From Ceratodon purpureus (Eukaryota; Streptophyta; Bryopsida; Pseudoditrichales; Ditrichaceae): a stretch of DNA of 64,000 nt. The position numbers and the translations under genes are program-made. The notes beneath the pieces were generated by a model. It saw only the letters and a program-made list of their open reading frames with translations, had not been told where the DNA came from and ran no database searches. This document shows, in pieces, positions 16,283 through 40,847 of this stretch (position 1 is the stretch's first letter; every line of letters starts with the position of its first letter). The stretch is from positions 6,087,585-6,151,584 of the forward strand of contig CM026433.1 of the NCBI GenBank assembly GCA_014871385.1, read 5' to 3'.

Positions 16283-17527
16283 GTATGCATCGTCTTCTCC
16301 GATTTTCCTCTATTGTAACTGCCTATGTTATTCTTGCCATTCATATGACGTAGTAGGATATACCTGTCAAGTGCAATGGTAGGCTTACGGATCCCTAGCT
16401 TCAGAGCTCAGGTTCGGCCTCTGTCATTCTATCAATGACTGCCCTTATGATTGACTGCCCTTTTCAGTTATGCCTCCACTTCCAGTTTACTGAAATAATT
16501 GCTATGCACTTGTAGGCATCGACCACGCCATGGAACGTGCTCCGCAAGCTCCCCTGTAGCAGCTACACTAACGGGTGACTTCTGTCTCACTAGTAGGAGA
16601 GCTTTCTCCACTTACGAAATTACACCAGTGGAATGACAGACGAACCAGCAGCGGGAAAGTCACTGCTAGCAAACCTGACGTTCCCCATCCCGGCTCTTTT
16701 GGAACCTGACGTTCGTGACTGTCTAGGCTTGGAATTTGGCGATGTCTGGCTTCGGACGGTCCCGCGTCCCGATTTATTTGGTAGTGTTTTAGCCTGACCA
16801 ATGGAGTTAGAGATGCTGTGCAGAAAAGGTTGAGGTGATTCCAGCATGGTATAGTAACCTCGTGGTAAGGTACACCTCACCAATATCAAATTTTTACCTT
16901 CCTCCGAGGCGATTTTAAACGGATTAGTGATAACCGTCGAGATGTCGAAGTGGGGTCGTTTGGTGTTACTAGCTGTGGACCTGGAGTGATCCAATTCATT
17001 ATGCGGACCTCACTTTCATACTTGGTTCTTAATACCAGTGTATTTAAGTAATCATTTTCAGAACTACTATTGATGTCTAAGTTCAGGATCCGGAACATAG
17101 AGAATGACAGAGTCGTGAGATTAAACTGAGAACACAGGATTACAGACATGTAAAATGAAAGCAAGGCAACAACTCCAACATTAGGACACGATACACATAG
17201 ACGAGTGTTTTCAGTGTCAAACATCTAGGGTAATTGTGAAGGTTCAGAGTGTATTCACGAACTGCACCGAAGCATACAGTGCTGCTATTAGACAGGGTGC
17301 TTCAAAATGGACTAAGTTCTCCGAAACTGGCCTAATCTCTCTTGAGGTATTATACGCTAGCTGTCCCAATTTGGTGTTTACATTGTCGATGCAGCGAGAA
17401 GGTCGAGCGCTATACAGGTATATTAGGCTTTTCCATTGTCTCACAAACCGAATCCAGGCCAAAATTAAGCTATACAAAAACTAAAACCTGATCATACTGC
17501 TGCTTCTGTATCCACTCTATCTTGATA
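16283..17527. other. No gene recognised
   Basis: Nothing convincing is coded on either strand. Short - strand frames at 16568-17224 have no domain. A CACTAACGGG sequence at about 16567 was considered as a CACTA end and set aside because no inverted partner was found. Confidence 0.45.
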
Positions 17528-19566
17528 TTAATCGGTGTTACTGTAATCGCTATCTGACAATACCAAGGTGCGCCTTTCCTTAGAGGGTGATCCATTCGGG
17601 GTCAGACGCCCATATTCTGCAAAAAACAAAAGCAGCAACATAAGAAAACAGCATATATAACCGTGTTTCTATTTAACAAATTCATTTAGATTACGGATTG
17701 ATAAGAATGCTCTCAATGATGAGTGAAACATATCTCACCGTGCGGCAACTCGAGCGGGATATCTCTGAAGTGAAGCGGCGACAGGGCGATCTGGTCGAAC
17801 ACTGTTTCGTCAGGGGGGCTAGCACCCAATATTCCAATATCATCGGCTGTCGGCGGTGGTGCATGCTCAGCTGAAAGGGCTTGGGCCTGATGTTGAGAAG
17901 CTGCTGCAAATCTAGCCAGCTCTTCTGGAGAGAAGAAGTCCTCTGCACATGTGACGATTGTAAAAGGTATATGTCAATCTGGATTACTGGGAAATGTACA
18001 TACTGTAGATATAACCAGGTCTTAGCATCTACTTTTGGAAAAATTCGTTCTAAGAATATAAATGATATGAAAAGGGACGATGCTCACCAAAATCCGAGTC
18101 AGGGACAGCTGATTGTGTATGCCTCGATGTTCCACAACCGTGAAGTGCTCTGAACTGAGCTCTGTCTCGTCTCACCGACTTCTTTCTTTCTTCGCGAAGC
18201 CACTCTTCCTGCACTTCCTCTACCGCCATACGCTTCGACCTTGCCTCGTATAGGTCCGCGCTGAGATGAGCTAAGTAGGTTAATTTCTCGTTCGGGGTCA
18301 TGTGCGGGTAACCGTGACCTTTGGCTTCCTCCTTCACTGCACACGTGCCCAAATTTCAGGTCCATTCTAAGACATAATTGGTCATTGTTTACATATAACT
18401 AATTCGGATAGGTTCCACTTACTTGCTTTTATCACTGCAATGTCTGCCTCAGAGCGACGTTTTCTTGTTCGAGTCGATGAGCGTTTCGGTGCCACCGGCG
18501 TTCTTCCTCCCACATTGCGTCCTTCGTCATTTCCCTCGTCCATGATTGGATCAGTGCGTCGTTCTGCTCCAAAGAAATATCAGACAATACTTCGAAGAGG
18601 TTGTCAATGCTCGTGAGGGTAAAACTGAAGGCGAATACTATATTGTACTTGTAACTCAAGATGTGCGAGGAGAGGGATGCTGAGATGGAAGTGAAGCGAG
18701 ACATTATGTAGGTGATGGTGTTCTCACCTGCAGCCCTGTTCCCAATGTCCGCTACGTTGTTTCCGGCATCCAAGTCCGGGCCTGATCCATCCGAGTCCAT
18801 TTTCAATTAGGTGTTAGCACACTTCAGAAAAGCTTCTACCATCTCTATCAAATTAGAATACGATTAAAAATTAGTACTGTAGAAACCGCAATCACTAGAC
18901 CTTACCGTTCTGACAGGATATGGTACTGTACGCCGGAGGTCTGATTATCGCCGAAGGTGGCTCGGGAAGGGCAAACTTCAGGTTATATCCACGAACCTTG
19001 CGCTTGTCCAAGGATTTTGGATTTCTGTTTACCTCCCAGTCGTCGGGTGCCCCCTCCAGCTTGCTCTCGTCCACGTTTAGGTCCAAAATCTCGTTGGATG
19101 GCCAGTCTTTGTGCTCGAGGGCACACCTCCGTTTGTATTCCTCGATGGGCTCGAATGCCTTGGTACCGCGGGAGCACATCTTCTCCGCGAAGCACGCCCA
19201 ATTCACAGCGTAGCCCAGCTTCTCAGCTATCAGTCCCCGACCAAAAGCAATTCCGAAACATCGCTGTTTCCCAATGGGCCGTTGGTGTGTGAGCTGAAAG
19301 AGTTTTTCAATTCTGTATCTCTGCCTTGGACTCTCACACGCACCAGGTTTTGCGTACCAGAATGAGCCTCCACTACGCGGCCCCCATCGATCATTACACA
19401 TTGTCTCGGAGACGACATCTTTCGGTAAGGAGTCTGGATGATCAGTCGGAGCTCCAGGCAGGTAGCCCTCGTTGTTGAGTCCCTTCTCCACGTGAAACCA
19501 AAGGGCATCTCCCATGGCAGGGGCCTCGGAGTTGCATCCTCGCAGAGCAGCCATCTGAAAACACAA
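17528..19566 (-). CDS. Unrecognised family gene A (paralogue of gene B)
   Basis: Six exons on the - strand fit: 19566-18906, 18781-18728, 18563-18423, 18336-18088, 17942-17739 and 17616-17528, about 465 residues in all. Exon 1 holds the main domain of about 200 residues with GLNNEGYLPG, RWGP, FWYAKPG, RPIG, RGLIAEK, VNWACFAEKMC and GAPDDW.VNRNP. Later exons give an acidic link, a basic KRSSTRTRKRRSE stretch (possible nuclear signal), a helical GYPHMTPNEKLTYL unit, LHFRDIPLELPHG, and a tail ending RTLVLSDSDY. Gene B at 36.9 kb has the same pieces in the same order with matching intron phases at the five exon junctions I could place. I know no function. It lies just downstream of the TNP2 gene on the same strand, so it may be cargo or an accessory gene of the transposon. 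The upstream ATG choice is uncertain. Confidence 0.7.
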
Positions 19567-21810
19567 TTGCCAAAGTTATTTACTAAAACAAAGAGTCTGG
19601 TCGCACATTCATAAGCTCCAGTCTAAGCCCTTGTGATCAATATTATGGAACAAGCAACAATCCACTTCGGATTGACATAAGAAATTGCAGAATTGAAGAC
19701 AATCGAGGTAAATGATATTGAAAAACTTACAGATGGTATGTGTATAAGGCCGGTTGTAGGGTTTTGGGTTTCAGTAGAATGCGGCGCTCCGAACAGGTGG
19801 GCGTCGATAACGTCTGTGAGCAGAAGGTAAGCTAAACACAATTGATGACCACCCTCCGGATACGTTGGACAGCAAACTATGACACGGACAAAAGAAGACT
19901 GCGTACAAACCAAGCAAAGGAGGACAGGTTATATAGAAATGGGCAGCAACTACAGAGCGACGAATTCAGAGGACGCGTTATCATGCTCCAAGTCTAGCGT
20001 GATGCAGGCCCTACAACAGGATGCCAAAGAAGATGTGCAAGTAATGCAGAGAGACTGTGGGTTATAGCAATTTACCTCGAAATCGGTGATTCCTCCGCAA
20101 TGTGCACACAACGCAATGTGTAATACGGGCGGCAAGCTCAGTTACCATACCAGGACGGATACCTTGCGCGCAACTTCTTCTCCAAGGTATCTTGATTCGA
20201 ACTCGGAAGGACAAGCGAGGAACTGCGCTACCTCCATCTACACAGAACAGCGTGAAGGAAAAAAAGAAGCAGGAAGATTGAGCAGGGCCTGCCACTTATA
20301 CTCGGTAGGGGGACGAGACACTTGATCGGACTGTTTACTGCGCTCTGAAAGGGATGCATTGTGGAGACAGAAAGAGAGGATTAGGGCAACTAGAAGCGAT
20401 GGTTAGCAGATGGAGGAAATGATGTCTTCCTGCATTGCATGATGATGATGATGGGCTACTTTAAGTGGATTTGACATCCTAGTTACTTCCCTGGGTGAAT
20501 CATTGAGGAAACGTCCTCATAAACTTGACAGGCTAAACATATGATTTGACGAAGGGTTATTGGCAATGATGACTCTCCTGGACTTGAAAGCTAGAGGATG
20601 ACCACCACCATATTCCAACAGGTACTCAAAGCCGCGGGTTCCTTAATCCGCCATGGGCGTTACTAACGCTTTTCAGGGCATGCTGTGCTACCATGATCAG
20701 ACAGAATTGAGGATTTCCATGACATCCGAAACCGCAGTGGAAGAGGAACCAGCCTGCATTCCGGTGAAACCAAAACCAAAAGGGATTCTGCTTCCGCTTA
20801 GGCGAACTTAAGGCCCTTCTAAATTGTACAGAATAGTCAGTCATAAGGTCTCCAACAAATCATAGACTACAATACTCTTAGGGGCGCGAAAATTACCTCT
20901 GTGGTCATCACGGGTTATGTTGTGCATGCTGTGCAGCTTGCATCGACCCTTCTGTTCGAACATGTCCAAACAAACGCAAAATCCATAGAAGATGGTGGTA
21001 CAACACTGCAATAACTTCGTTAAAACCTTGGACAACAAAGTTGATTATTTATGTGCTGATTTTTATGCAAACCAAAGAAATCTGCTTCACCTTGAACAGG
21101 GTAAATAATCTACTGTTTGCCTGACTTAATCCGTCCATTTCCCTTGGAATTTGTGGTATACCAAATCTCTGAATCTCTGTTTAAAACACGTACAGAATGG
21201 TATTTAAACTTGATCCAACGTAGTTTAAACGGACGTTAAATTGCATGGACAGATTACCAATTTTTTTAATGTACATAATGAATTCGACCAGTGCTTCAGG
21301 CCTACTCTGAGAGCACCCACTTTGGTAACTAGTTTTTTGTTCCTTATCTAAAGTCTGACAAGTTCGCAGATGACTCATCTATACTACAATGCGAAGGGGT
21401 GTAACAAACAACATTTTTAAACAAAATTATCCGGGTAAATGTGTAAACTCAAACTTTCACGATCCAAGTGAAGATTACATTTTCTGGAGTTATAAGTGCA
21501 TCAGGCTTCGTATTAGTTATAGTTTGGTTTCGACCGAGACAACCAGGAGAGCTCTCGAGAGATTTGAACATCTGATGCACAACAACGACCGGCAGATTCA
21601 CATTAGTTGCGTGACATGGTAGCATTTCCTGAAATTAACAGTAAATTGTATAACAGAACTTAATAGTAGACACATACACTGCCGTATCCTCCATAAAAGT
21701 TTGCCAAGTAACTGTTAAAACTATTACCCCATGTATTGCCCAATCATGTAAACAAGCATTGAGAGTGCCGGGTTGGATAGTGAATACACTTACTTGGACC
21801 AAAACTATCT
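19567..21810. other. Spacer between gene A and TNP2, no gene recognised
   Basis: About 2.2 kb without a convincing coding region. A short ATGATGATGATG run sits near 20437. This is where one end of the CACTA element might lie if gene A is outside it, but I found no clear CACTA terminus or dense subterminal repeats. Confidence 0.4.
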
Positions 21811-24800
21811 CTACTCGTCGTCAATGAAATCGTACAGCGCTGCCTCTGGAACAGGAGTGGCATTTGAAGTTTGTACCGGCTCATCATCCGACATTTCATG
21901 GTGCTCGATGTCGTTGTGGGCTGCCTCATCGTCGTGTTCCACGTGTGCATTCACGTGTTGAACGTCTGCTTCTAACACGAGCTCAGGTCGAGCTTGTCCT
22001 CGCTGCACTTCACGCATCCCCGCTCTATTTAAATCCAGAGTCGCGTTTTGCCGTCCTGGTGCAGAGAGAGATCGCTCAGATAAGGAGTCAACCACTCTCC
22101 TGGATCGAGGATCTTTATATCGTACAACCTTCCACTCTGGATCGACTGGGTCGTTCACAAAATACACCTGCCACAGATCATTACTACCCTCAGATTATAT
22201 TCTCAAAAAAAGTAGCCCATTTCCATGATGTCATCTTATCCACGCGACATAGTATCGTACCTGCCGAGCGTGCGCTGCTAATAAGTACGGCTCCACATGA
22301 GGAGGTTGTCGAGCATTATACTTCACCGACCAGAAGCCATCTTCGTCTTTCCGGATGGTTCGTATACCTTCAAGGTGTGGTTTAATCCATGAGCATTTGA
22401 GTACGCATGGTTTTATGTGCCCATAGTCAACTTCTAATATGTCGTTTATAATCCCGACGTACAGCAATTCCGCTTCAACTGGGTGTTGGTCTGCCCTCGA
22501 GGAGCGACATGTCTGGTTTACAATAGCGGCAACTCCTGCGTCGAAAGATGCGTAGCTTCCGTCAGTGTCACTCTCGGCGCGAAAGTGGTACCCGAAGGAC
22601 CACATGGACGGATGGTGTCTCACAATTGGCGATGGGAGCCGCGAGATAGTAATCAAGTCCGGAGATGGATTATCGCCTTCTCTGCTCATGCCCCGCACTC
22701 GTTCCTCAAGCCACTCCCAGAACGGGGGTAATCTTCGTCGATTCCTGCGGTCTTCGGCGGACTGTAATGTCTGATACTCACTGCAATGATCAACGAAAAT
22801 TAATGAATATCGGCCTCAATTGCCGTCTCTGCGAACTTGAAAATGAATATCTTCTTTTTCATAATTGTATGGATATTCTAGACTCAGGACCATCGTAAGA
22901 CTTCCAATTGTGTGGTTCTCAGTTACACCATACATGTCTATTTGGATGCAGATGCATAGTTCTAGTGTTAACCATTACCTTCCATCTCGTGCATACACAT
23001 GGGACTTGTGTACTGATAATGGATATTAATGACGGTAGGACTCTGGAAACATAGCAGGGTCTGGGATAGCGAGTTGACAAGATAGTTGCGGAGAAGACAA
23101 GGAACGTACCCGTAGAGAGGGTCTGTAACGTTAGAGTTGCGGATTATGTGTTCGTGAAGTTCGACCAGAGATGTGTCATTCCAGTGCTCACTGCGACCAC
23201 GATTCTCCATCACTTCACCGCCGTCTTGCTCGTCTTCGTCCATGTCCCATATAACCCTGGCTGCAACGGGATATAAATTGAAGTGCTCGGTGACGAACCC
23301 CAAAGCCTCCTCATACATGTAGCCCATTGCAATGGACCCCTCGGGTCTAGTTTTGTTCCTAACTAGTCCTTTTAGGTGACCCAAATACCTTTCCACGCTA
23401 TACATCCATCTTGCATGTACAGGGCCACACCAGTATAGTTCACGAGGCAAGTGCAGGGGAAGATGCTCCATCACGTTCCAAAATGCCGGAGGGAAATGTA
23501 ACTCCAGCATAGCCCATGTTTCAGCAACGTACGTTTGTAAATGTTCCAGTTCGCTAACCTTGATTACCTTCTCGCAAAACATTTTGAAGCAATGTCCTAA
23601 GCGGATCACAGCGATCCTCGGTCCATCGGCCAAGGAACCTCGAATAGCTGCAGGCAGTATCTCTTCAATGAGTACATGCCAATCGTGACTTTTCAGAAAC
23701 TGAAGTTTACCCTTCTCCAAACTGACCAGCTTGTCGAAATTCGCACTGTGGCCAGACGGGACTTTTACATTTTTAATGGTTTCCAAGACCCGCCTCTTCT
23801 CTCCCGGTAATAGAACGTACGGTGCACGTGGCATCAGGTAATGGTCGCTGTCCCCCTGCCTCACGAGATGCAACTCCTCCATTACACCGCACTCCTCCAT
23901 GTCCTTTCTCACGGCGATGTTGTCTTCTTCTCCAAATAGAAACCCGGCCATTGTAGCTGCAACGTTTTTTTCAACGTGCATGACGTCCAAAGTATGTCTC
24001 ACTGGGAGCTCCTGTTACAATGCGGATAAAATGTTCAGCAAAACCAAGCCTACCAGATACTCACGACTTACACCTTGAAAATGGCAAATTTGAACATTCA
24101 AGACTTAACCAGACACAAAATATCAATTGAGAGTTGGGGAGTGCAAGTTTTGCAACAGAGATGAAATTACAGGAAATTGATTGACATGTACGTGCCGTAA
24201 AGGACCAAACATCACCAGTGGCATCGCCCGTATAATAAAACATGGAAACTAGACAATTAGCAAACACTCTCCGATTAAGCATGAAAATCTATATGTCATA
24301 GAGATTAGAGGCTGTAACCTATCGGTCAGGTTCAAGATGACTATGGGTCGGAAGCACAACACATTCCGCTAATTTAATTCTCTGTCTCTCCGGACTAGAG
24401 ATTAAAAGACTTAAAGAGAGTTGGACAGTGTCACTCGAACTGCACATCTCCGGGAAGTAGTGGCATACGCGGTTCGGATACCGGATATGTCCCTCGTTGT
24501 TAGCAGCACATCTGTAAATCGAGTAACTTCCTTGAAAAAACCCAACTACGCAGGTAAGAAACGGAAAGCTATAATCTACTCGTCGATTATCTGAGGATAC
24601 CATATCAATGTGCTTCGGACTGACATCGGAGCAAAGCGATTCTATTCTGCCTGAGATTACAGATGGAGGAAGACGTATTAAAGAGAGAGAACAGAGACAT
24701 TGTAAACTGGGTCCATACCTTCCAGTATGGTAGACGGTAGAGCGATGACACTCGTTTGATGCCGTTTCTACGGACCGGGTCATTCTGAGATGGTCTACCC

Positions 24801-26837
24801 TCATCCCTCAGCCACCTGAGTCGCTCCTCTCCCAAAGCTAGGGCCAGCTCACCAGACACCGGTAAGGGAGCCACCCGGTTCTCGACCTCTCCAAAATGCT
24901 CAGTGTCGAACCGCATGGGATGATCCATCTCCAACAGAAATCTGCGAGCACATCCGCAGAATATATTTTTGTGCAGAGTCTTAGATCTTCTAGATCTAAA
25001 CCCTTCTCCACATACAGGACACCCCACAAAACCATTAGTGGTGCATCCTGCCATCAATCCGTAGGCAGGGAAGTCACCGATTGTCCAAATCACCATTGCT
25101 TTAAGCACAAAGTGTGACGACTCCTTGTAACGAGCAACATCAAAGCAGTATACACCGTATGTCCACAAATCTAATAACTCCTCAATCAATGGTTCGATGA
25201 AGACATCGAAATGCTCGGCTGTGATTGACTTTGGCCCTGGGATGAGTAAAGCTAGCATTATAAAATAGTTCTTGGTGGTTAGCCAAGGAGCTATATTATA
25301 ATTCATGAGCAATAGGGGCCATATGGAGTACGTGCCTCTCTTATCCGAATGTGGGTTGAATCCATCCGTCACCAAGGCCATTCGAACATTCCGATCATCG
25401 TATCCAAATTCCTCAGCGAAACGGCTAGAAATCCACTTCCACTGGGCAGAATCTGATACGTGCTTCATTATCCCGTCCTCTGATCCTATAGTGGCATGCC
25501 AAGTCATTGCTGCTGCTTGCATTGGGCTGCGAAACATTCTCTTCAGTCGCGGTGTAACTGGGAACACCCTGGTCACTTTGTGCGGTACCTGTGACTTTCC
25601 AACACGACGCTTCCTTGGTGCTCTACAAGTCGGACATACCCGAGCATTTTTAAGGGGACCTCTGAAAAGACAGTGATTGTTCGGGCACACATCGTATGAC
25701 TTATATGTGTGCCCAAGTCGCCTCAGGTACTCCGCTCCCTCTCGGTAGGTCTTCGGAAGTGAGTTCGGTTGGGGAAGGATCATGGTACTGAGGGTACGGA
25801 ATAGTTCATCCATGTAGGCGTCGGAGCACTTATGTAATTTTCCTCCACTCAGTAATACATAGGTTGTGCCCATGCTGGAGTGATTTGATCCTGCAAACAA
25901 CGGCGTTGCAGCCGCCTCCTCCAATGCTGTCACTGCTGCATCTGGTTCGTCGTCTGACTCACCCCAGTCCATCGCCTCGTCGTCGTCTGTGAGGTCATCA
26001 TTGCTGGTTCCCGAGTCGGTATGGCCCATGCCATCACCTGCCGCGTCTTCAGATACATGGTCTGGATCGCGCTGCGACGAAACGGGAGACGCAACAGGGG
26101 TTGAGATGCCGACACGCTCCGGCGATCCTATACGCGATGGACCTGATTGGACTGCATCATCTCCTGCCAAGTTTCCGTCGAACTCGCCGTCCATGGGTTC
26201 TGGATCTGCTTCATCAGCGGGGATTGATTCAGGGCGTTGGCCCAACGGAGGACTACACGGATCTGGTACTACTTGCGGATGTATTGGGTCTGGCTCTGCG
26301 TTTGCTGCCTCATTCCGAACTCGATCAACTTGCTCGTACGTTTGTACGACCATTTCATTCAAATCCATACCGGGGTCTAAGTCTCTTCTTCTCAAAGCAT
26401 TCGGAATGCCCCTTGCCTGTGCACCGTAATACCATGATATATGTCCTTCCCATTCGTCATCGGAATCGTCCGCATCAAATCCCTTCCACATTAACCAATG
26501 GAAAAAAAGGCTGAGCTTCATATTGTTACCGGTAAAGACAGAACATAAGTGTAGAAAGGAATTCACATATGCAACTATGAAGGTAAGTTGGTATTGAAGT
26601 TCATGCCTGGGAGGTCACCTCAGTAGCGCCGTAAAACCAAGGGTGCCGGGAATTTGTCCGAACGCATCGTTTATACGAGGCAATGGTGAGCTCAGCCTCC
26701 CTCATATGGATCCGACAGGGGCATGGCATTTTGCTCCATCCTCTTGATCCTGCTAAGGCAATTTCCCGCTGCAGTAGTTTGGCATCCCTCCTTCTAATGC
26801 GCATCTCGTCTGGAGCGCTGCCTCGAATTCCAGCCAT
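21811..26837 (-). CDS. CACTA (En/Spm) TNP2-type transposase, apparently intact
   Basis: Five exons fit: 26837 to about 26620, 26482-24721, 24011-23110, 22780-22261 and 22167-21811. All junctions are open and in phase as far as checked. The first exon has a short Cys/His segment (MPCPCRIHMREAEL) where plant TNP2 proteins carry the transposase-associated domain. Exon 2 has an acidic linker, a CPNNHCLFRG...CPTC zinc site, DGFNPHSDKR, a hydrophobic tnp2-family core and a CPVCG site, ending LYRLPYWK. Exon 3 resumes with HTLDVMHVEKNVA and carries the DUF4218-like region (HLPLHLPREL, ERYLGHLK). Exons 4-5 hold a DUF4216-like region with VYFVNDPVDPEWKVV and an acidic end. TNP2 cuts and joins the element ends. 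A telo-box lies about 100 bases upstream. The intact frames suggest a recent or autonomous element. Confidence 0.88.
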
Positions 26838-26933
26838 CTCGACACGAACCTACAGAAAAATGACCACAGCAATGCCCGACACTTCAGTGCAACGTAACAG
26901 TGCCTGATTACTAAACAGAGCTTTAAGCCTTCC

Positions 26934-26942
26934 AAACCCTAA
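26934..26942 (+). promoter_or_regulatory. Telo-box motif AAACCCTAA upstream of TNP2
   Basis: An exact plant telo-box (AAACCCTAA) lies about 97 bases upstream of the proposed TNP2 start codon. Telo-boxes are common near start sites of plant genes active in dividing cells. Role here is inferred from position only. Confidence 0.4.
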
Positions 26943-27493
26943 TCAATGGAAAACGAGATGAATTCGGCAAGGTGATAACCATAGTGCGAATAAACACGAC
27001 ATCACCCAACGAAAAGGGAGAATGGGACGACGAATCGATTAAAGACAATGATGGGTGCCCTAAGAAGAAGATGAACAGCCAATCATTTCCTTGAATATCC
27101 ATACACAATGAAACCTCGCACACTGTTTCAGGGATGCATTCACGTCTAAAAAGAATGAGCAATGATTCAGAATGACGGGTTCTATTCAGCCTTTGAAATT
27201 TACCCACAAATTTTGAAAGCATAGAGAGAACGTCCATAGTCGATAATCACCCTGACCGTCGCTCTAACGTAGGGCCAAGACTATCCTCTACGCCAGTTCA
27301 CCTATACTACCTATTTCAATGCTGGATTCTATGGGGTGTTCCGGAAAACTGAAGGGCCAGGACAAGGAATACAACCCGACGCAGTCTTTAGAGAGCAGCC
27401 CTAAACCTAATAAAAATAAATAATACTCGTAAAACCCTAAAGCAAACTCGGACGCTCGGTTTCGAAGCTTGTACAGAGAACAACACCTGGTGG
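26943..27493. other. Upstream region of TNP2, no gene
   Basis: No coding motif. A second telo-box-like AAAACCCTAA occurs at 27431-27440. This could be promoter sequence for TNP2 or the 3' flank of the Cys-rich ORF. Confidence 0.4.
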
Positions 27494-27994
27494 TCAATTT
27501 GTGTCGACATTCTCCAAGTCGCAAATCCACTCTGCCTCTAAAATGTCCGGCACATATGGGGCAATTTCAGTAACGGAGTGGTTGATGCGACCTAAAGTCG
27601 CAATGTCGTTTTCCTGCGTGGGGAGCTCCAGTAGACAAGGGCAGATCTGCCCTGTCCATGGTGGGAGGGATGGCTCACAGCGACATGTAATCCACTTACG
27701 TCGCATTGCATCATCCAATGTGTGGAATTTCCTCCATGAATTACCCAGCTTGCACGTGCAAACAGGCCTCGTTAACCACCGGAATTTGGAACAGAGATCA
27801 CAATCACAATTATATAAGCAATCATGCACAGGACCAAAGGGTCCGAGTTCGTACACACGAATTACACGCTCTATCCAACGAGGCTGCCCACCAAACCGAT
27901 CGTCTCGAGTACTGTTCTCCCCATACTCATGCTGATACAGTATAGATGACATTGAAGCCGCAACGAAGACGCAACAGTCGAATGTGCCAGTCAA
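27494..27994 (-). CDS. Cys-rich ORF of unknown function
   Basis: A single open frame of 166 residues. About 14 Cys are concentrated in the middle: CLYNCDCDLCSKF, then PVCTCKLG, ITCRCEP and ICPC. The pattern suggests metal binding, but I recognise no family. It lies between the divergent TNP2 and TNPA genes, on the TNP2 strand. The first twenty residues are hydrophobic and may be non-coding or an artefact of the ATG choice. It could be an exon of a longer gene or an element-specific protein. Confidence 0.4.
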   Translation of the reverse strand: MTGTFDCCVFVAASMSSILYQHEYGENSTRDDRFGGQPRWIERVIRVYELGPFGPVHDCLYNCDCDLCSKFRWLTRPVCTCKLGNSWRKFHTLDDAMRRKWITCRCEPSLPPWTGQICPCLLELPTQENDIATLGRINHSVTEIAPYVPDILEAEWICDLENVDTN

Positions 27995-28733
27995 ACAAAG
28001 GAGGAAGGACTATCAAGCGAATATTCAAGTGAAACGCTTACATGCTTTGTGGAGTCGACCGAGAGTTCTTGCTGCGGTTCGACTTCTGACGGACAAAGGA
28101 ATCACCGTGTGTCCATCCACAGAGCAGAATGGCCTTCTCCAAGGAATAGTCTGTGTCCCAACCTTGTAAGTTCCAACTATCACCTCGCGTTTGATTGGAT
28201 TTCCTGTCGAAAAGGAAGGCTGATATCGTGAGTGCCGTATAGGTATTTCTTATAGACCATTTGGCCGCCGTCTTGACGTACTTCCAGAGGGGGCTAATGT
28301 TATCCTGAACCTAGAGTTTGCTACGCCGCAATCGATAGTTTAGAGGATCCTGTAGGTGCAGTTATCCTTGGCAGTAGGTAGTAATCACCGAACGCGTATC
28401 CAGTTAGAATTAGGACGCGTGTCTACATATTTTTGGTAGGTCTCTTCGAGAGGGCCTTACGCGGAGTTTTCGTCAATCTCATTCCGAGAACCCTCTCGAA
28501 AGTGGTTGTCCCGAGTGGTGTATGGGCAGTACACACTTTTTCTCTGGAACCCACGTCCGAGACAACCAGGGAGAGGTGCAAGGGCACGTACACAACCACC
28601 CGGAATTAGCGACTACCTCCAATTAATGAGAGTGCGCTCACATCGGGGAGATAGTGGAGGACTTTGTTTTAATGCCAGTTTTGGGTAGCGCTTTGCGCAG
28701 ATTATTTTAGGGCTTCGACTCGGAATTCGGGAG
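27995..28733. other. Central spacer of the CACTA block
   Basis: No convincing gene. This is the likely bidirectional promoter region between the - and + strand genes of the block. Confidence 0.4.
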
Positions 28734-29554
28734 ATGGAGCCCCCAGACGGCGTCTTCAGCTACGGGAACAATTTCCCAACCTATCGAACTGTTCCTGACC
28801 CTTATCAACAGCAACGGGCGCATTACACCTTCACAATTTGCTTGCAGGTCAGTACACCGAGTCTGAGAACCTCCATCCTTAGGTGAGATTGCATGCGCTT
28901 CCCACTCTTGCTTCCAAAGTTGTGTTTAATTTGTTAGATAGTATCCGGGTAGTGATGGCGAATTTGAGAGATCAAGGAGTCGGATCAGAGTTGGCTCGCT
29001 CAGAGGGAGGGGTCATTTCGGAACATGAGCGGACATTCGTTTCCATACATGAGCGGATGCGGTTCGCTGTGGAGTTTGAGCGGTGGAGAGTGAGAACATA
29101 CATGCTGAAGCACAACCTGCAAGATCGTCTTTTCTACCCCCACCAGGAATGGTTTGAGCCACCAACCAGTCCGCGCAAGGAGGGTGACCCCGCAGAGAGA
29201 GTCGAGGAATCATTCATGGACATCCTGCCTTTCGACCTGGTCCTCAACAACTTGTGGCCGAAGGTGATGGAAACCCCCACTCCAGAGGATTTGCGTAAAA
29301 CTCGGTTTCCCATCCAGGAAGAGGAATGTTCCCGGGTCACTAACTTTGGCATCTGCTGCCACCTCCGAAGAGTTTGCAAGGGCTGGAAGTCTTACGTGGA
29401 AGAGAGACCTGAATGGAACAAGGGTCTACTAGCGTGGTTGGAGGGTGTGCACAGGATACCTTACGGTGAAAGCAAAAGACTGTACGAATCAAGCTCTTCG
29501 GATGACAGCTCAGATTCAGAAGATTCGTACCATACCGACAAGGAGAGAGAGTAG
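28734..29554 (+). CDS. F-box-like protein with acidic tail
   Basis: The ATG at 28734 opens 38 residues (MEPPDGVFSYGNNF...) ending at a CAG|GTCAGT donor. A TTAG acceptor at 28882 resumes the frame in phase, giving an intron of only 35 bases. Exon 2 (28883-29554) has a central FMDILPFDLVLNNLWPKV segment followed by CHLRRVCKGWKSYVEER, reminiscent of the F-box pattern (LP.D.V...L, then a C+.W motif). It ends in a Ser/Asp-rich tail (SSSSDDSSDSEDS). F-box proteins link substrates to SCF ubiquitin ligases, but the match is weak and functional assignment is inference. It lies between TNP2 and TNPA, on the TNPA strand, and may be transposon cargo. Confidence 0.5.
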
Positions 29555-29910
29555 TTTGGCCGGTCGATAGTTGTCGCACCAGTCGAAGAGGCCGTTCCCG
29601 TTTAGTGCTCTATGTTAATTTCTGGACAGGAAGGTGAAGTAGCAGTAGACTCAGTCCGCGTAGAACTGAATTCGGCGAATCTACAGTTTTACACACTCGA
29701 ATAAATTTGCTTTCTTTATTGCAATTTATATGAAGTTCTTCATTCGGGGTTTCATCCCTACCTTATTTGTGCGCCCACATGAATTTTTGCATTTGATAAA
29801 GACTTTGTCGTGGATTCATACGTCTTTCCGACCTCATGCAGGACGGTTTTTGTAGTGGTCTCTCGGCAATGTCCGGGCCGGGGAAGGTATATTGTTCGCA
29901 ACAGTCAAAG
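29555..29910. other. Spacer upstream of TNPA-like gene
   Basis: 356 bases with no coding motif; presumably the 3' end of the F-box-like gene and the leader of the TNPA-like gene. Confidence 0.4.
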
Positions 29911-32900
29911 ATGAGTAATCCCACATTCGACAACATCAGTAATGCACTTCAGGTACAACCATATTTCCTATAAGAATTGACTTTATGAATTTCTTTTGTA
30001 ACTCCAGCATATACCTGGTATTGTGAATTTCTCTACATGTCAAATCTGTATACACTTGTATTACCTTCAAATAGTTCATGTTATGATATACAGGGTGCCA
30101 CATCGGATCAAGTGCCGGTGATGACCCCGTTTCCATCGAGGCAACCATATTTACCGCAGTGGCCAGGCCAAGGGATGTATCCTCCGACGGGAGCGACATC
30201 CGTGGAGGAAAACCAGCAGCTTCAATTCATGTATCAGCAATTTCTGCATGCAAACATGCACGGAAATTCGCAGACGACTCAGCCTCTAGGTAACTATCCT
30301 CGGATGATGAACCCTGGGCTAATAAACTTTGACTATTCGGTGGCGAACTCATTGCCGAGGAACGTCCCACTCCAGGGTTTGTCATCCGAGAACCAGAATA
30401 ACATGCCTGGAAGTAGTCGCCTATCTGGCTCGTTTGGGCGTGAAGGAAGCAGTAGTGCAAGCGGCGGCCATGGATATACCGCCACCACACAGGCATCAGC
30501 ATCAAGGCCCCAGAAGGTACCTAATTCAACTACACCAAACCAAAACCCCAATCAACCTTTTTTTTTTAGTCAGAGCGCTCATGGTTGGCCCGGATGGGGT
30601 GGTGCATCGACAATGTCCCCCTTTTCATTCCCTCTGTCCGCTGGACCACATGCCATTGCCGACCCTCGGGCGGTAGGAGAAGATACCGGACGTCTCCCCA
30701 TTCCATGTAATGGCGAGCACGACAGGACTCTTGTAGTGAACCCCGGAGAATCAAAGAAGACAGCTCAAAGGCGTGTACAGAGGGAAAGACAACGTGCATA
30801 TAAAATAGCGTCACAGGTGTGGCCTATGAAGATTGCTGCTACCGACGAAGGGGAACTACCAGTAGATGTTAGAGCTGCTGTGCATACACAGATTCGCGCA
30901 TCATCTCGGAGATTCCTAGATCTTTCGGTGATAAAGTTTAGGGATCACCCCGACTCAGATATTCAAATCCTGAAGGACGACCTTGACAGAAGGTTCGTAT
31001 TCGACCCCCCTCTTCGTGAAGGATATGTGTTGTTCTACGTTGAGAGTTCCCTAAGAACAGCTAGATATATCTGGCACAAACATTGGTTGGATACCGGAAG
31101 AGGGGCGAAGCACAAATGGTGTCCTACACGTTTTTTTCCAACATTAGTACGGTACTGGCGGACAAAGGAGGCAGATGAAGAGGCACGGGTTTTAAAAGCG
31201 GAGAGAGAGGCGAAGAGAAAGGAAAGAGACTTACGAATGGCAAACGGCGTGACGGAAGACGGCAATACAGAGGAGGAGTTTGACGTGAGTCAGAACATCA
31301 TCTCCTATACATGACCTTGTCATATTCTTTTTGTTATAACTGGACAATCACATAACACACAGTAGTAAATGACCAGGCTTTGAATCTTTCATGATCGAAA
31401 TTTGGTGGAATGTGCATGTTGGTGAAGCCTGTGTTGGACGAGGATGACGAGAGTGTTTTCTGGGAGGACCTGGATTCGTGCGAGGATTCTTTGGAAGGAG
31501 AGGATCTCGCAGGCTCAACGGCAATGAACGAAACAGAGACACAGGTGAGCAGAAAAGGACAGTCGTGAAACACTATCAACTGTTTCCCGCCACATTCCCT
31601 CAGCTCAGCATAAATCCATGTGTTACTTACTCTCATGCCGTACATTCTTCCCATGCTTATCCGATTTGATATTTACCGCTGCAAGCCAGTGTTTAACATA
31701 TGTATATCCTCCCATAATTACAAAATAAATTTCTCTATCTTAACCTTCTATTGATACGTTATTGATGTACATTACAAAATCAGCAGAGAAATAACGCCTC
31801 TAGGGAAGGGACAACAAGCACTCCGGCCTCCAAAGAGAATGATAGCTCAATCCAGGTACTATCTTTCTCCTTTTTTTGTTTGCATTATTTCGCTGCACGG
31901 TTGTATACTCTGGTTTAGACGTTCTATGGACTGTGTGCTAATCACTCCACTTAAAGTGAATCTTAAACATTCCGCCGTTCCGTGTTGTCCAACTGCTCGA
32001 TCAGGGTCTCAATGAAGGAGCAGGCACCCCGAGTCACGCCACAATTTCTGTTCAGAACAGGAAGAAGGGGGACGTAGTTGCACGATCTATAACCCGGGAG
32101 CTCCTGGCCCTAACAAACCAGGTACAAACCATTTCGAAGAGGTGTGACGAATTTGAGCTCCACAGGTCCGAAAGCAAAAAGGACATGGCGGTGGTTCACT
32201 CTAAGCTAGATCTCCTTCTTGAAGCCTTGCAGGCGAGTGGTCGGGGAAAAGAGGTCACAGAAATGGGTCTGAAGGACTGTACTGGACCGGGGGGAACATC
32301 CGAGCGTCCAGCGAACACTGGAATCAATGTCAGCCAAGGTAACGCCGTAGTTCCACCTGTAGGACCAAGTACGAACGAAAGGACGTGCTCTGCGTCCGGT
32401 GTCTCAGATGAGACTGTTGTAGGCGACCGCGTCAACAACAACCCAGGTCAGTGATTCTGTACAGATCGGTTCATGTTAGGGATTGCTTCAATTTCCGCAG
32501 TAACGTTGTTTAAAAACAGTCGCCAGATTGTACGGAGGCATCAACTACTAGAAATGAGAAATGAGACGGCCATATTCGTTCAGAGAGTGGGTCCATTGCA
32601 TAACTCTACGCGTGCCTTTGATCTTACAGCGGGAGATCAACCGAGAAGTGGACTGAATGCGGCGTTTGGACTACCAACGAATGTAGAGTATTTGCACGCA
32701 CAGAGACGGCCTACTCCAACAGGTAAATACTCGCTTGATTACCTTTAATATTTTATACAATATAATATCCGTAAGCACTAGCTATCGTTATCCTGTTAAC
32801 AATTCTGCAGTCCAATAAGGATACCAGCTCATAATTGGTCATCCATTCTCCCGGTGACTTATTAGCTAACAGATTAGCGTGGGTAAGCAGCTGATCTCGA

Positions 32901-33556
32901 CTCCCCCGAACCAGATGTAGCACTGAAAGGGGTTAGACCAGGACCCAAGAAAGGGACAAAGAAGCCGACAGACAATTTAGCGTCAGACGGCGATGGGCAT
33001 CATGGTACGGCCTCGGAATGCGTCACAGTACAACGCCCTGTCCGTAAAAGGAAGAGACCTTCTAAATTCCTAGATTATGTTCCTCCGGCGGAGAACAAAC
33101 CACGAGCGGAAATGGTATGATCGCTACATCCCCTGCTATGCACTCTGCATCCTGCCATTGTTTATTCATAGGAACTGGCCAGTGTTGGTTACTCATGTAA
33201 CTGATGTTTGCCCTGTGAAGTGCGACCCACTGAAGCCCACCAAGGCGGTTTGGATTCTGCACCCTACTCTCCAGAACAAAACCATCGCTCTTGGGCGATG
33301 TGGCACTCATTGGCGGACGAACAAGAAACAGTTTGTGCCAAACATCCAAGGGGTATCCTGGTCGCACGGAATGCAGCTCGTAACCATAGAGCATGTGTAT
33401 CCTGAGTGGGCCCAAACACCAGTGTTATATCCGGATCAGCAGAGGCAAGGCATAGTGACGATTGGAGACGCTCTGAAGGGGGATTTCAACGAGGACGCCA
33501 CTATTCTATGGCAAACCAGGTTTTTGAACTTGGTAGAAGTCAGCAAAGTAAACTAG
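29911..33556 (+). CDS. CACTA TNPA-like accessory protein, apparently intact
   Basis: Eight exons fit in phase: 29911-29952, 30094-31284, 31428-31544, 31787-31855, 32005-32446, 32501-32722, 32915-33114 and 33221-33556. The N-terminus is Gln/Pro/Gly-rich. The central region (about residues 250-400) has FVFDPPLREGYVLFYVESSL, a Trp-rich RYIWHKHWLDTGRG and a charged KAEREAKRKERD coil, like the plant Transposase_24 (Ptta/En/Spm) domain that binds element ends. Next come an acidic linker, a coiled coil (ITRELLALTNQVQTISKRCD), a basic KKGTKKP and VRKRKRPSKF stretch, and a C-terminal NKTIALGRCGT...VTIGDAL...ILWQTRFL domain like the DUF8039-type ends of such proteins. It is transcribed away from TNP2, unlike En/Spm, where both products come from one transcript. 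All exons are open. Confidence 0.75.
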
Positions 33557-35149
33557 CTGGTGAGTATAGCCTGTAATATCTGGAATGTTAACTCCATAAT
33601 GGGTAAGATTGCAGTCCGTGTTAATGACAAAGTATTTGAGTGTTAGTCTGTATTTGAGTGCCAAGCAGTAGAGGTCTATTATTCTTAAACCCTTATTACT
33701 ATCAAATTTCCCCGATCATGTACTCCATAGCTTATCGATTTTCTTGAATCGCCTTCCGACATGTACTTAACAAGTGAGTTCCGTGGTTTTTTTTTGCAGG
33801 TGGTTCATCGCCCAAGCAAGGCAGTATTCTGAACAACCGTCCGTTGAACTATGATATTTTCGACGGACGTGGTATGTTTCAACGATCAGCCTTTTTTGGA
33901 ATCGTCTCACTTTCATCCGGGGTCCACCTGACAGTTGCTATTCGTTTCTCGAGTTTTGCCCTCATCGACCGCGGAGACATCACAGGGGGCTGTCGATTAA
34001 ACGACCACTGACACGTCCGTACATCAAGTTACGGTATAGACGAACCCAATAGCCCCTATTCTCCAAACCCTACATCCCTGTACATTTCTCATTTCCAATG
34101 CATTGTATGGCTTTCTCGAGTATGCAGGTGATTCCTAGACGACCAGGGTATTGCAAGGAACAAGATATCAGTACCTTAGTGGTTGCAGTAGGTTAGACAT
34201 GTACCGCACCATCGTGTGCTCGTTAAAGCTCGGCCTAGATGACGTTGACAATAGAGTTTAAGCAGTTGAATTAATATCCATACGGTATCCACATTGACTT
34301 CATATGTCAACATTCGGTATGTTACTGCAGCAATACCTGTAATCTTTCATTTGAATGGAAATCTTATGCAACTCACAAATCACATTTCTACCAATGTCGA
34401 ACAAAAGCAAATCGTCGCAGTTAGCACTGTATACCGACTGGTACCCACATGAATGACCACGTGTCATCACATAAATCAACGTAATTAACCCCCGGGACGG
34501 ATCCCCATATTCAGAACGCGGGAACCCTCTTGATTCGACCACGTGTGCATATACTACACGGCAACGACGTCTCCTTCGCGACGTCCCAAGTGAAGTTCCT
34601 TCGGGAATTCGCACCGAGCCGGCGAATGATATATCTGCGATTACATCAGAATCCGACGGTTTATATGTAAGGTGCAGAGGGGTAGTAAATTAGCACCCGG
34701 GGTAACTCGGAAGACACTCTGGATCCCACGTAGGATCTGGTCGATCCACGTAGGATTGCAACCATCGAGGGACACAGATCATAAACTTCAGAGCGACCTA
34801 GTGCGCACGATGACTGTGCAATATGGCGGGCCCGCTGTTGTCCTTTGTGACTTCAAGCACTCAGAATTCTGCGGACCTCTCGAAGTTCGAAATCTCACCG
34901 CGACCCTGCTCCAAGCGTGAAAACCATGTCGCCCACGGGTACTTTTTGCTATACTGGGACGTGAAAACCGTCAGGTTTGCTAGCAGTGAGTGGAGTGCAC
35001 ACTTTCCTCGTACCCAGGTAAGTAAGTGAGTAGCGAATAAGTGAAGGTGCATGCCACGGACGTTGCCCACGTAATCGATAATTGGGAGGACATTGATAAG
35101 TGACCTCAGAAGTGCAAATGCAGGCCACAGTCAGTGGTCACGAAGTCCA
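33557..35149. other. 3' flank of TNPA-like gene, no gene recognised
   Basis: About 1.6 kb without a recognisable coding region. AAGTG motifs begin to thicken from about 35020 into the array that follows. Confidence 0.4.
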
Positions 35150-35612
35150 CCCGTGGAAACACAACACTGAGAGTAGTGATATGTCAGTAGAGGGTGTGCC
35201 GACAAGTGATTGTGATATGTCAGGTACTATGTGAAGAGACCTGCCAAGTGTCAAGTGGTATGTCAAGTGTCAAGGCAAGTGATATGTCAAGTGTCAGTGG
35301 AGAGTGCTCTTACAAGTGGTCAGCCAAGTGTCAAGTGATATGTCAGTGTTCTGTCTAGTGATTCTGATATGTCCAGTATCTTCTGATATGTCAAGTATCT
35401 TGTGAAGTGTTCTGTCAAGTGTCAAGTGCCATGTCAAGTGATATGTCAAGTGCCAAGTGATATGTCAAGTGATATGTCAAGGGTCACTGGAGGCTGTTCT
35501 GTCAAGTGTTCAGTCAAGTGATATGGCAAGTGACACTGAGGGCTGTTCTGTCAAGTGTTCATTCAAGTGATATGGCAAGTGACACTGAGGGCTGTTCTGT
35601 CAAGTGTTCAGG
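35150..35612 (+). repeat. AAGTG-rich tandem array, including a 49-base unit
   Basis: The interval is built from variants of CAAGTGATATGTCAAGTGTC, almost all in one orientation. At its right end a 49-base unit (starting GGCTGTTCTGTCAAGTG) is repeated at 35492, 35541 and, partially, 35590. Dense short direct repeats near the end of a transposon are what CACTA subterminal TNPA-binding regions look like, and the TNPA-like gene lies just upstream. That role is inference; a simple degenerate satellite is the alternative. Confidence 0.85.
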
Positions 35613-35658
35613 ACAAATCGTAAATATTTTTCCTTTTATTTTATTATTTTCTTACCAT

Positions 35659-35677
35659 CACTACAATGGGTGTAGTG
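35659..35677. other. CACTACA/TGTAGTG hairpin, possible CACTA terminus
   Basis: CACTACAATGGGTGTAGTG is a perfect 7-base inverted repeat around a 5-base loop, 46 bases right of the AAGTG array. It begins and ends with the CACTA terminal signature. A similar but imperfect CACTACCCTAAGTGTAGTA lies at 53682-53700 next to another AAGTG-rich region. No matching left terminus or target duplication was found. Confidence 0.4.
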
Positions 35678-36855
35678 GCATTCGTTCTAAACTTTGCAAC
35701 AAAATTATGGCTCCTTCTTCGCATAGGTTCCTTGCTTACTACGGCGTCACTCCATCACTTCGTGGAGGTGACCCTGGTTGGATTGTCTGGGTGGCCTGCC
35801 GAGGTGATTGCTCGTGGCTGAGGTGGCCTCCACGCTTTGAGACGTTGCGGCTGAGTGGACGGGTTAGGATGGAGTGGAGAAACCACGACTACGACAGTCT
35901 GGTGACCAGGTAACCCTAATTTCGCCTCTCTCCAGCCACCATGTCTACCCAATTTGTGGCATTGTCCAGTACTCTGCAGTCATCGGTGGAGAGGAGGTGC
36001 TCCGGGTCAGAAGGCACGTCCTCTTCATTTCGGGGGTACTTGTGGTTGGAGTTCTAGTAGGGTAACTGAGGTTGAAGTTCTAGTGCGATTGGAGGGATTG
36101 CATCCTTGGTCTTTCAGACCCTATGTCGTTTTGAAATTACATTGTGTTGAACTTCGTGATGCTCGTTGGGTTTTTCTCCTGATAAATTACTCTGTGTGTG
36201 ACGTCGGCGTCTGGAGATCTTGCAGCTGAAGCTCATTTTATTCGGTTCGTCCCACTTCACCAACTGCTCTGCTGCTGCTGCGCGTCGTCGAGGGACCACG
36301 CCATCGCTCTTCGCTCACTGTTTTGCCTTGGAGCTGCGGAGACCGATTCGTAGAGGTATGACAATTGCTGCTCTACACGACCTTGTTCAATCTTGCGATA
36401 TTCAATCAATTCTGCTTCAGTGAATTGATTCTCCGCAGATTCTAGGATTCGGGCTTGCTGAGAGAGGGAAGGGTTAGGTCAGTCTTCTTAGGAAATGCAG
36501 GGATAGTGCTGGACGACTGTTCAATGTTTTCAATGCTTTGCGAAGGATCCCAGCTTCCATGATTGTTAGGTTTTCGGATCTAACTGCTTGAGCTTAATGA
36601 AATCTCAAATGCTTCGTGCCTAATTAAAGTATTTCTTCTCTATTCTCCGATTTCAGTGTCGACGAGCTCACTGTTGTTATTAGTGAGTACTGCAGAACCT
36701 TCAAATTCATTGAGACCCGGGCGGTGTTCACAGCGTCTAGGGTTTTCTGGACGGTGCTCAGTTTGTGTGTGGTCCATGTGGCATTTCTGTGCTTGTTGAA
36801 GTTGTCGTAGGGGTTTCCTGTCTAATTATGTGCCGTGGCCATTGTGCATAAGTAG
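35678..36855. other. Upstream of gene B, no gene recognised
   Basis: No conserved coding motif. The stretch presumably includes the promoter and leader of gene B. Confidence 0.4.
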
Positions 36856-38714
36856 ATGCCACCGGCCAGAGCACAAATTCATGGAGCGCGGGAGAAAGGG
36901 GACCCCAGATGGTTCCACGAGGAGGAAGGACTGAACAAACGTGGATACGTCCCGGGTGCAGCTGCCACCGCCGCTTTCTCCTTGCCCCACAACGTCGCTT
37001 CGAAGTCCATGTGTGAGAGGCGATGGGGACCGATGAAGGGTGGCAAATTCTGGTACGCGAAGCCAGGTCAGAGTGAGAGCCCGCGGCAGTGCTACCGAAT
37101 CGAGCGTCTGTACCAGATTACGCACCAGCGGCCAATTGGGAGATACAAATGCATAGGGTTAGCATTCGCACGGGGTTTAATCGCAGAGAAGCGTGGGTTC
37201 GCAGTGGACTGGGCGACGTTTGCAGCGAAGATATGTGCCCGTGGAAAAAAGGAATTCAGGACGTTTGAGGAACTCCGACGGCACTGTCGCGAGATTGGAG
37301 AGCCGTTTCCCCCAAACGAGATTAAAAAACTCGACCTCGACGAGGACTCTCTGACTGGAGCTCCGGATGACTGGCTGGTAAATCGGAATCCTGACCTGCT
37401 TGATCCTAACCTTCTACAGGGGTTTGATCTCACATTGGCTCTGCCGGGGGTTATGCCAAACATTGTGCACCGACCGCTTTATTGCTCTTTCAGAGAGGGA
37501 GAAGGCGAAGCACTGTCTCCATCCTAAGTCTTCTCTACTCACTTCGCATTTGTATGTCTCATTACCTCATTAATACTGGGGCCCTTTTGAAGACTACTTA
37601 CCCGCTGTGTACAACTTCTGTGCAGGCTACCCCACCGAGACAGAAGACGAGACTGATGCCAGCGACGACGACATTCTCTCAAACAAAACGCCACAAGGTA
37701 CTGAAATTCAGAACATCATTAAGACCCGAACTTTCATGTTCCTTACTGTTGACTGAAACCCCAGTGAATTCTGCAATGCCTCCGTAGGATGAAGAACATG
37801 ATGTCCGAATTTAATCCATGATCGCTCCCTATTCTGACATCAACTACATCGTGGCGCCGCAGGTGCCACAGCATCTGCGCAAGGTGGAGACCTCGCCAAC
37901 GATATGGCGCGCTCTGTTCCAGCACGCGACGATAGCACTCCAGCGGGGAAGGGGAAGCGTAAGCACGACGACGACGTCTACATCATCGAGCAGAGTAAGA
38001 GCTTGAAATCGGTGGCCATGCTAAGACGTGCTCTTTATTCACAATACCTGTGTCTCGCCTAACCTGCGATGTTCTTCATAAACGCAGTGAACGATCGTGC
38101 CATGGCGGACGGGTACCACCACATGACGGGCTACCAGAAGCTAAGTTATCTGTACGACCGTGGAGATGAGTTGGACGCGGAGAGGCGCAAACGGAAGGCG
38201 GTTGAAGACGTGCAGGAATCCTGGCTGAAGAGCGAGCGGGCCCAGGCCGTGCAACGGGGAATTGAGAACATGATGTCGGATTCTGGTAATTTGAGTACGG
38301 ATTTGTTTTCAGTAGTGGCGTGAACAGCATCAATGACTTCCCTGACTGAGATCTACGTTATTGTGGTCTTTGACACCGTTGAGTACACCCGTGCAGACGA
38401 GTTGTTCCAGCCTCCTGGCGGGACACAGACGGTGGCCGAAGACCATGAGGACGAGGACTATGAGGATCCGGCCCCGCCAACAATGACCAGCCCGTATTCA
38501 CCTCTGCCTTTCAAGCGCCTTCCCCTGCAACTACCAAAAGGTAAGCACAGAAACGAATGTCAGTTCCATGAGCCACCTCATACATTTCAGAGTTTTCGGT
38601 TAGATCCCATATTCGCATTGTGTAAGTTCGTTACCGCGTACTCTGACTCTTTCTAGACAGACACCCAGGGGACCCGGACCCTGGCAGTTTCAGATGACGA
38701 GGAGGAGAGTGCTT
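36856..38714 (+). CDS. Unrecognised family gene B (paralogue of gene A)
   Basis: Proposed exons: 36856 to about 37499, 37626-37697, 37863-37994, 38088-38285, 38397-38540 and 38661-38714. The first domain mirrors gene A: GLNKRGYVPG, RWGP, FWYAKPG, RPIG, RGLIAEK, VDWATFAAKIC, GAPDDWLVNRNP. Then come an acidic exon (TEDETDASDDD), a basic one ending DDDVYIIEQ, the GYHHMTGYQKLSYLYD helix, LPFKRLPLQLPKG and a tail RTLAVSDDEEESA. Five exon junctions share phase 1 with gene A. The exon 1 donor is unresolved; a GC donor (GAAG|GCGAAG) would keep the phase, otherwise exon 1 stops at 37527. It lies downstream of the TNPA-like gene on the same strand, mirroring gene A and TNP2. Function unknown. Confidence 0.68.
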
Positions 38715-40042: not shown

Positions 40043-40692
40043 TGCTGTTACACTAGACACCTCACAGGCGTTGTTAATCCCCATCACATGCTCCTGCTCC
40101 TTGCTGATCATGTTCTACTTGTTTTCATCGGTGTCAATGCTCATCATGGCCTTTACTTTGGTGTCTTCAGTGTTATCATTGGGGTTTACTTTGGCACCGT
40201 ATGTGACAGCCTTAAATGCGCGATTAGGGGATGTTGTGGTTATAAGCCGAAGCTGGTTTGGACCTATCACCCGATCACAGGCAGCATTAGCATTGTTCTG
40301 TGTAGGCGTTGTTACCAGTTGGATGGTGACTGGGCACTGGTTTCTGAACAATGTGCTTGGCATATCCCTCTGCATTGCTTTCGTTAGCCATGTGCGATTG
40401 CCTAATATCAAGGTCTGCGCTCTGCTTCTGGCGTGTCTGTTTGTATATGATATCTTTTGGGTATTCTTTTCGGAGCAGTTGTTTGGCTCCAATGTTATGG
40501 TCACTGTGGCCACTCGGCAAACTTCCAACCCGGTACACACCGTTGCAAATTCGTTGAACATGCAAAGAATATCAGAGGTTGTCGTCAAGAAGTTCGACCT
40601 GCCTTTGAAGCTTATTTTCCCCCGTACCTTCTGGGATGTATCCAGTGGGAATTTCCGCAGTCAGTATCTTATGATCGGTCTTCGTGACATGG
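40043..40692 (+). pseudogene. Signal peptide peptidase-like (SPPL1-type) fragment
   Basis: SPPLs are multipass intramembrane aspartyl proteases. A continuous frame encodes LDTSQALLIP, several hydrophobic helices, NNVLGISLCIAFVSHVRLP, FVYDIFWVFFSEQLFG (catalytic YD motif), NPVHTVANSL and GLRDM at the GTAAGC donor. The second catalytic motif should read GLGD; here it is GLRD, so the Asp is kept but the essential Gly is Arg. The exons after it, including the PAL motif, are missing, because lectin-kinase sequence follows within 150 bases. The N-terminal protease-associated domain is also missing. The fragment is open but inactive by both truncation and substitution. Confidence 0.87.
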
Positions 40693-40847
40693 TAAGCTTC
40701 TTCATTCTCATTGTTCATTCTGTGATTGGTTGGAAGATTTTCTACAGCAGCAGGTCGTTGTTGGTTGTAGCAGTGCTTAGAACTTAGACGTTGAGTTAAA
40801 TTTTGCTGGATACTTCATTAACCAAGGCTCCTGGTTACAGTCTGCAG

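Follow-up and report, generated by a model that had tools for sequence, protein, structure and literature searches.

Two related genes that point outward on either side of a set of CACTA transposase genes raise the question of whether they belong to one transposon, and of what their products do. They lie in a 64,000-nt stretch of the moss Ceratodon purpureus, which is referred to here as the window (contig C13 in the genome searches). A reading made from the sequence alone had described these genes, A and B, as a mirror-image pair of an unrecognised family that flanks the CACTA genes and could be carried by a transposon. The features of the locus are collected in Table 1.

Table 1. Features of the window, in window coordinates
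Feature	Position	Strand	Remarks
Gene A	17528–19554	-	six coding exons, 461 aa, within the CACTA element
Gene A exons	19554–18906, 18781–18728, 18563–18423, 18336–18088, 17942–17739, 17616–17528	-	spliced model
Gene A exon 1	18906–19554	-	conserved N-terminal region
Gene A exon 4	18088–18336	-	GY.HMT region
Gene B	36856–38716	+	six coding exons, 416 aa, beyond the CACTA element
Gene B exons	36856–37504, 37626–37697, 37863–37994, 38088–38285, 38397–38540, 38661–38716	+	spliced model
Gene B exon 1	36856–37504	+	conserved N-terminal region; GC donor in the window copy
CACTA-type DNA transposon	16661–34988	.	18,328 bp, TSD AGT; terminal repeats, TSD and empty site in C11
Left terminal inverted repeat, CACTGCTAGCAAACCTGACG	16661–16680	+	20-bp perfect repeat
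Right terminal inverted repeat	34969–34988	-	20-bp perfect repeat
TNP2-type transposase gene	21811–26614	-	several exons, unspliced; Pfam Transposase_21 and DUF4218
Candidate TNPA-like second CACTA gene	29989–33556	+	open frames, assigned by position only
Open frame with weak F-box resemblance	28883–29554	+	within the CACTA element; Pfam F-box E 0.061, below cut-off
Candidate recombinase/transposase-like frames of the B unit	1085–5713	+	sub-threshold Pfam matches only; function guessed
eIF3m gene fragment	14697–16557	+	part of the repeated unit; protein match, end 16557 by eye
Direct-repeat array, motifs TGTCAAGTG / TGATATGTCA	35210–35611	+	upstream of gene B
Open frame of the B unit	51825–52820	-	in 5/5 stretches, loosest in C3 (40% aa); no Pfam match at E<0.1
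RING-like open frame	53844–54668	-	73–100% aa in 5/5 stretches; RING match weak, E 0.03

Gene models and relationship of A and B

The spliced models of A and B agreed in an exon 1 of 649 nt and in phase 1 at all five internal junctions, the latter as the sequence-only reading had reported. Its gene ends were close, with the start codon of A lying at 19554 instead of 19566, and the stop codon of B ending at 38716 instead of 38714. The GC donor of gene B intron 1 was replaced by GT in all seven further copies read, which supported the model, and AG and GT were present at the predicted junctions of B in the same seven. A splice acceptor lies immediately 5' of the start codon in both genes, and by eye each appears to have an intron in its 5' UTR. 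The composition of the products points to a larger N-terminal region and, after it, segments that are acidic, partly basic and helical (the helix judged by eye).

A and B matched each other by tblastn at E 4e-69. The identity was 55% over a 198-residue core encoded by exon 1, and 45% across the full alignment of 405 residues. Measured against shuffled sequences, the similarity was 18 SD in exon 1 and 6 SD in exon 4, modest in exons 5 and 6 (2.3 and 2.7 SD) and absent in exons 2 and 3 (1.0 and 0.0 SD); the introns scored 0.5–2.4 SD. The tblastn E-value and the shuffle scores ruled out chance similarity. The N-terminal domain noticed in the sequence was therefore one of true homologues. The proposed correspondence of exons held in order and phase, and did not extend to the sequences of the 'acidic' and 'basic' exons (2 and 3).

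Synonymous sites in the core were saturated (pS 0.78 versus 0.76 for random codon pairing), and the non-synonymous difference was low (pN 0.31 versus 0.73 for random codon pairing; dN 0.41). When unselected divergence was simulated to the nucleotide identity of A and B, none of the 500 runs was stop-free, and amino-acid identity did not exceed 35%. The split between A and B is thus old, and both were retained as proteins. The spliced models of A and of the window copy of B contain no frame breaks, and their intact frames and constraint ruled out decaying pseudogenes. Selection at the protein level, surmised before, was supported by these core values and by a dN/dS of about 0.3 between diverged B copies. 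The best explanation is that A and B represent two ancient lineages of a single uncharacterised family of proteins in repeated moss DNA.

Full-length A and B matched no Pfam family at E<1, in agreement with the earlier description of the family as unrecognised. The exon-1 region of one of the two matched FYVE at E 0.16, which we treated as noise, as we did weak matches of this region to a designed binder (E 1.3) and to lasso peptide B2 (E 0.011). No relative of the region was found at a meaningful E-value in PDB sequences, NCBIfam or PHROGs. It gave 19 pattern matches in viral contigs and 28 in prokaryote genomes, none of which was confirmed, and no relative in phage records, which were searched with B only. 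Structure prediction, which had been suggested as a check, was run with AF2 on the exon-1 region and did not recover a fold (mean pLDDT 34, no usable structure). The titles and abstract openings listed by literature searches contained no account of the family or of the repeated unit around B, and the family, being nameless, is unsearchable by name.

The CACTA element and the order of insertion

The element around gene A is bounded by CACT-type, 20-bp perfect terminal inverted repeats and a 3-bp AGT duplication. The longest comparable run of terminal repeat in 100 Markov-resampled windows was 11, versus the 20 bp observed. The TNP2 gene matched Transposase_21 (PF02992) at E 5.3e-58 and DUF4218 at E 7.4e-31 in Pfam. 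A match to DUF4216 (E 5.9e-6, 27.2 bits) was below the cut-off of 30.6. With these ends, this duplication and a TNP2 with DUF4218, together with the sub-threshold DUF4216, the element belongs to the CACTA (En/Spm) superfamily. It departs from that superfamily in also holding gene A and the weak F-box-like frame. Gene A is thus carried by an 18.3-kb CACTA element, the one element in which the link of A to CACTA was seen.

TNP2 and TNPA make up the standard CACTA gene set. Among the frames assigned to the candidate TNPA-like gene, those at 29989–31314 had no Pfam match at E<1 and those at 33074–33556 none at E<0.1; those at 31960–32454 had a weak spectrin-repeat match (E 0.059). A cysteine-rich open frame on the minus strand (27494–28009), between TNP2 and the F-box-like frame, likewise had no Pfam match at E<0.1. 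The motif AACCTGACG has only three sites in the window, one in each terminal repeat and one more near the left end of the element. No tandem array was found in the element.

Gene B starts 1,868 bp past the right end of the element (34988). Contig C11 contained an empty site, in which window sequences 1–16660 and 34989–40806 followed one another without a break, at 99% and with only one AGT. This showed that the CACTA element was a later insertion, which jumped into a larger multi-copy unit already holding B. The element end and the empty site ruled out that A and B both lie in one CACTA element. The picture of two genes flanking the CACTA genes did not survive this result, since the element ends before B and contains only A, and the mirror-image layout is without support as a meaningful arrangement. 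We are nearly certain of the homology of A and B, the CACTA ends and the insertion order, taken together as a single claim.

A second CACTA element around B was also rejected: among other pairs of CACT-type ends flanked by a 3-bp TSD, scanned for right ends up to 46000, the best did no better than those of 30 shuffles. A putative canonical CACTA end at 35659–35677, beside the array, was rejected as partnerless; the other matches had two to three mismatches and were no more than expected by chance. The proposal of a transposon-carried family was upheld for A, which is in a transposon, and partly for B, which is in a probably mobile multi-copy unit. The part that failed was that both would be CACTA cargo.

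The repeated unit carrying gene B

Gene B was searched for in the 362-Mb assembly of 151 contigs. It matched no fewer than 40 loci (49 rows, merged into 40 loci, came from the 40 candidates scored out of 113), ten of which were near full length, at 81–100% identity on eight contigs. The remaining loci were partial. Seventeen of them shared one 220-nt match at 74% with equal score (gene B 156–375; C1–C5), and these probably represent a high-copy subfamily of the A/B family.

For five of the ten loci near full length, surrounding stretches of 40 kb (C11a, C11b, C6, C7 and C3) were compared with the window. In their long blocks, C11a, C6 and C11b matched at 95–99%; identity fell as low as 66% in shorter or rearranged pieces, most of them in the motif array. 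C7 matched in pieces at 73–88%, and C3 at 75–92%. The long blocks of C11a (1–16660, 34989–40806, 43181–54739 and 57680–58565) together account, at 99%, for some 34.9 kb of the 45.7 kb that lies outside the CACTA element; the parts without a match were 40807–43180, 54740–57679 and everything right of 58565. At 54740–57679 (about 2.9 kb), which spans most of a coiled-coil-looking frame (54691–56277), C11a carries a different sequence of about 0.5 kb.

Gene B, the RING-like frame and the frame at 51825–52820 (loosely in C3) were matched in all five stretches. The candidate recombinase/transposase-like frames were matched at 97–100% aa in C11a and C6 and at 64–86% aa in C7. They had no match in C3, and the C11b stretch, which starts at window 5825, does not reach them. 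Frames within 3096–4955 that contain SDGCAAQFK and GHGKGLHDGAGA motifs were conserved in C7; these frames are a candidate transposase of unrecognised type.

The unit also contains pieces of host genes. The eIF3m fragment matched residues 75–290 of a plant eIF3m and not the last approximately 100 residues, and a search of the window did not recover the last exons that the fragment lacks. A short aberrant tail of the fragment precedes the CACTA insertion. eIF3m protein matches were obtained from C11a only among the five stretches. A signal-peptide-peptidase frame (Pfam Peptidase_A22B, E 5.9e-46) recurred in C11a, C11b and C6.

Inverted repeats at 1–611 and 58371–58981, 58 kb apart, were 96% identical. 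By eye they resemble the end of an AP-2 alpha adaptin gene, which we presume them to be. The idea that they terminate a giant element was rejected on this resemblance, and because both C11 copies leave the window inside the right arm. The match to C6 runs on to about 60429, and C7 has kinase-like sequence (by eye) in place of the window's adaptin piece. The right-hand junctions of the unit differ between copies.

The genes of the CACTA element were absent from the five stretches, except for a weak match in C3 to the last-third TNP2 piece (24% identity, E 1e-9); the transposase query consisted of this element's TNP2 pieces only, so that a distant CACTA transposase could escape it, and C11b has a 10-kb gap. 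Copies of B without CACTA genes, which the sequence-only reading had named as evidence against itself, were thus what these stretches contained, bar that one match.

The gene itself was read at eight of the 40 loci (L001 to L008, L001 being the window). Five were intact and three broken (L004, L005 and L006); L007 and L008 were identical in coding sequence. Comparison of L001–L003 with L007/L008 gave dN/dS of 0.27–0.30 at dS 0.30–0.32. The values were 0.39–0.79 among the near-identical L001–L003, on few changes, and 0.36–0.55 in pairs with the broken L005 or L006; those of L004 are meaningless owing to its frameshift. The divergence of the window copy from L007 was 8.2, 9.6 and 18.7% at first, second and third codon positions and 21.9% in introns. 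From L006 it was 6.5, 4.1, 12.0 and 15.6%, respectively. L002 and L003 had too few changes to tell. B is therefore constrained as a protein between diverged copies.

The motif GTCAAGTG occurred in one orientation within 3 kb upstream of B, with 13 copies in the window, 14 in C11a, 11 in C6 and 16 in C7. The array was thus present in four of six copies. C11b was unreadable here because of its gap, and C3 lacked the array, with one GTCAAGTG in the 3 kb. L007 and L008 had no array motif in the 1.5 kb upstream of B.

Possible roles of the family

The CACTA element offers one comparison. TNPA is the second, non-catalytic CACTA protein, and the product of gene A would likewise be a second, non-catalytic protein of such an element. 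The likeness to TNPA of En/Spm lies in this putative role, and the element of gene A has another candidate for the TNPA role. VANC of the Arabidopsis VANDAL elements offers another. It is a transposon-carried non-transposase gene, and the regions it targets are tandem repeats, containing short motifs, that lie in the noncoding DNA of its own elements (PMC10398659). A, and probably B, resembles it in the first respect. In the second, only B may be similar: in four of six copies it has a tandem short-motif array in the noncoding DNA beside it, and the array differs in arrangement from copy to copy. No Pfam relationship to VANC was found for A or B, and the carriers differ. A defining trait of VANC proteins is that they strip DNA methylation from the copies of their own elements.

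We put the chances of an accessory nuclear role for A and B as even. In such a role, the N-terminal region of about 200 residues would recognise short motifs within the noncoding DNA of the carrier element itself, with the array upstream of B as the candidate target of its protein. The acidic stretches, basic patch, helix and tail would recruit partners. As a result, copies of the element may stay expressed (anti-silencing, as with VANC), or transposition may be assisted (as with TNPA). Anti-silencing or end-binding ranked highest, because repeats of this tandem, short-motif kind are what VANC proteins act on; this is an argument by analogy, and anti-silencing in particular seems rather improbable.

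The end-binding alternative holds that A and B are TNPA-like cofactors that join transposon ends, and not anti-silencing factors. It is rather unlikely. Gene A does lie within a TNP2 element, AACCTGACG is found in both terminal repeats and near the left end, and the B array resembles the subterminal repeats known from CACTA elements. On the other hand, the frames at 29989–33556 are a competing candidate, three AACCTGACG sites are few for a binding platform, and the array lies upstream of B, at no demonstrated end. A and B might instead be a moss host gene family, captured separately by two kinds of repeats (transduplication) and having no part in transposition. Gene capture by CACTA elements has been reported (PMC13317346), and the B unit carries host pieces, namely the eIF3m fragment without its last exons and the signal-peptide-peptidase frame. 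These pieces vary among the five stretches (eIF3m in C11a; the peptidase in C11a, C11b and C6), however, whereas gene B and the frames within 51825–54668 are found in all. Several B copies are also intact and constrained; since eight of the 40 loci were read, a single-copy host locus may be among the rest. We consider host capture to have a low probability.

The B unit, for which no ends were located, is probably a transposon, and a large, gene-capturing one. Alternatively, the unit may be a block that spread in another way, such as by segmental duplication. This would fit the failure of CACT-type ends around B to exceed shuffles (right ends up to 46000), the adaptin-like nature of the 96% inverted repeats, and the variable right-hand junctions. 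It fits less well with the ten near full-length copies on eight contigs at 81–100% identity, and with the mixture of constraint and decay in these copies, as expected of transposon genes. We regard such a block as an improbable origin of the unit.

We tentatively favour the reading of an uncharacterised family in moss repeats, with A and B as nuclear accessory proteins of transposons and the B unit as a transposon, and give it as a whole somewhat less than an even chance. More doubtful is a further possibility, that one accessory family serves two unrelated kinds of moss transposons, a CACTA element and a gene-capturing element of more than 35 kb with a recombinase, a RING-like protein and an array. 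If true, an anti-silencing or targeting system would be shared and diversified among different element superfamilies. To our knowledge, few systems of transposon anti-silencing accessory proteins are known. The B unit, with its fragments of host genes, merits a proper description. A constrained family without a recognised domain, occurring both in a CACTA element and in a large moss repeat that carries genes, would provide an independent system for silencing evasion.
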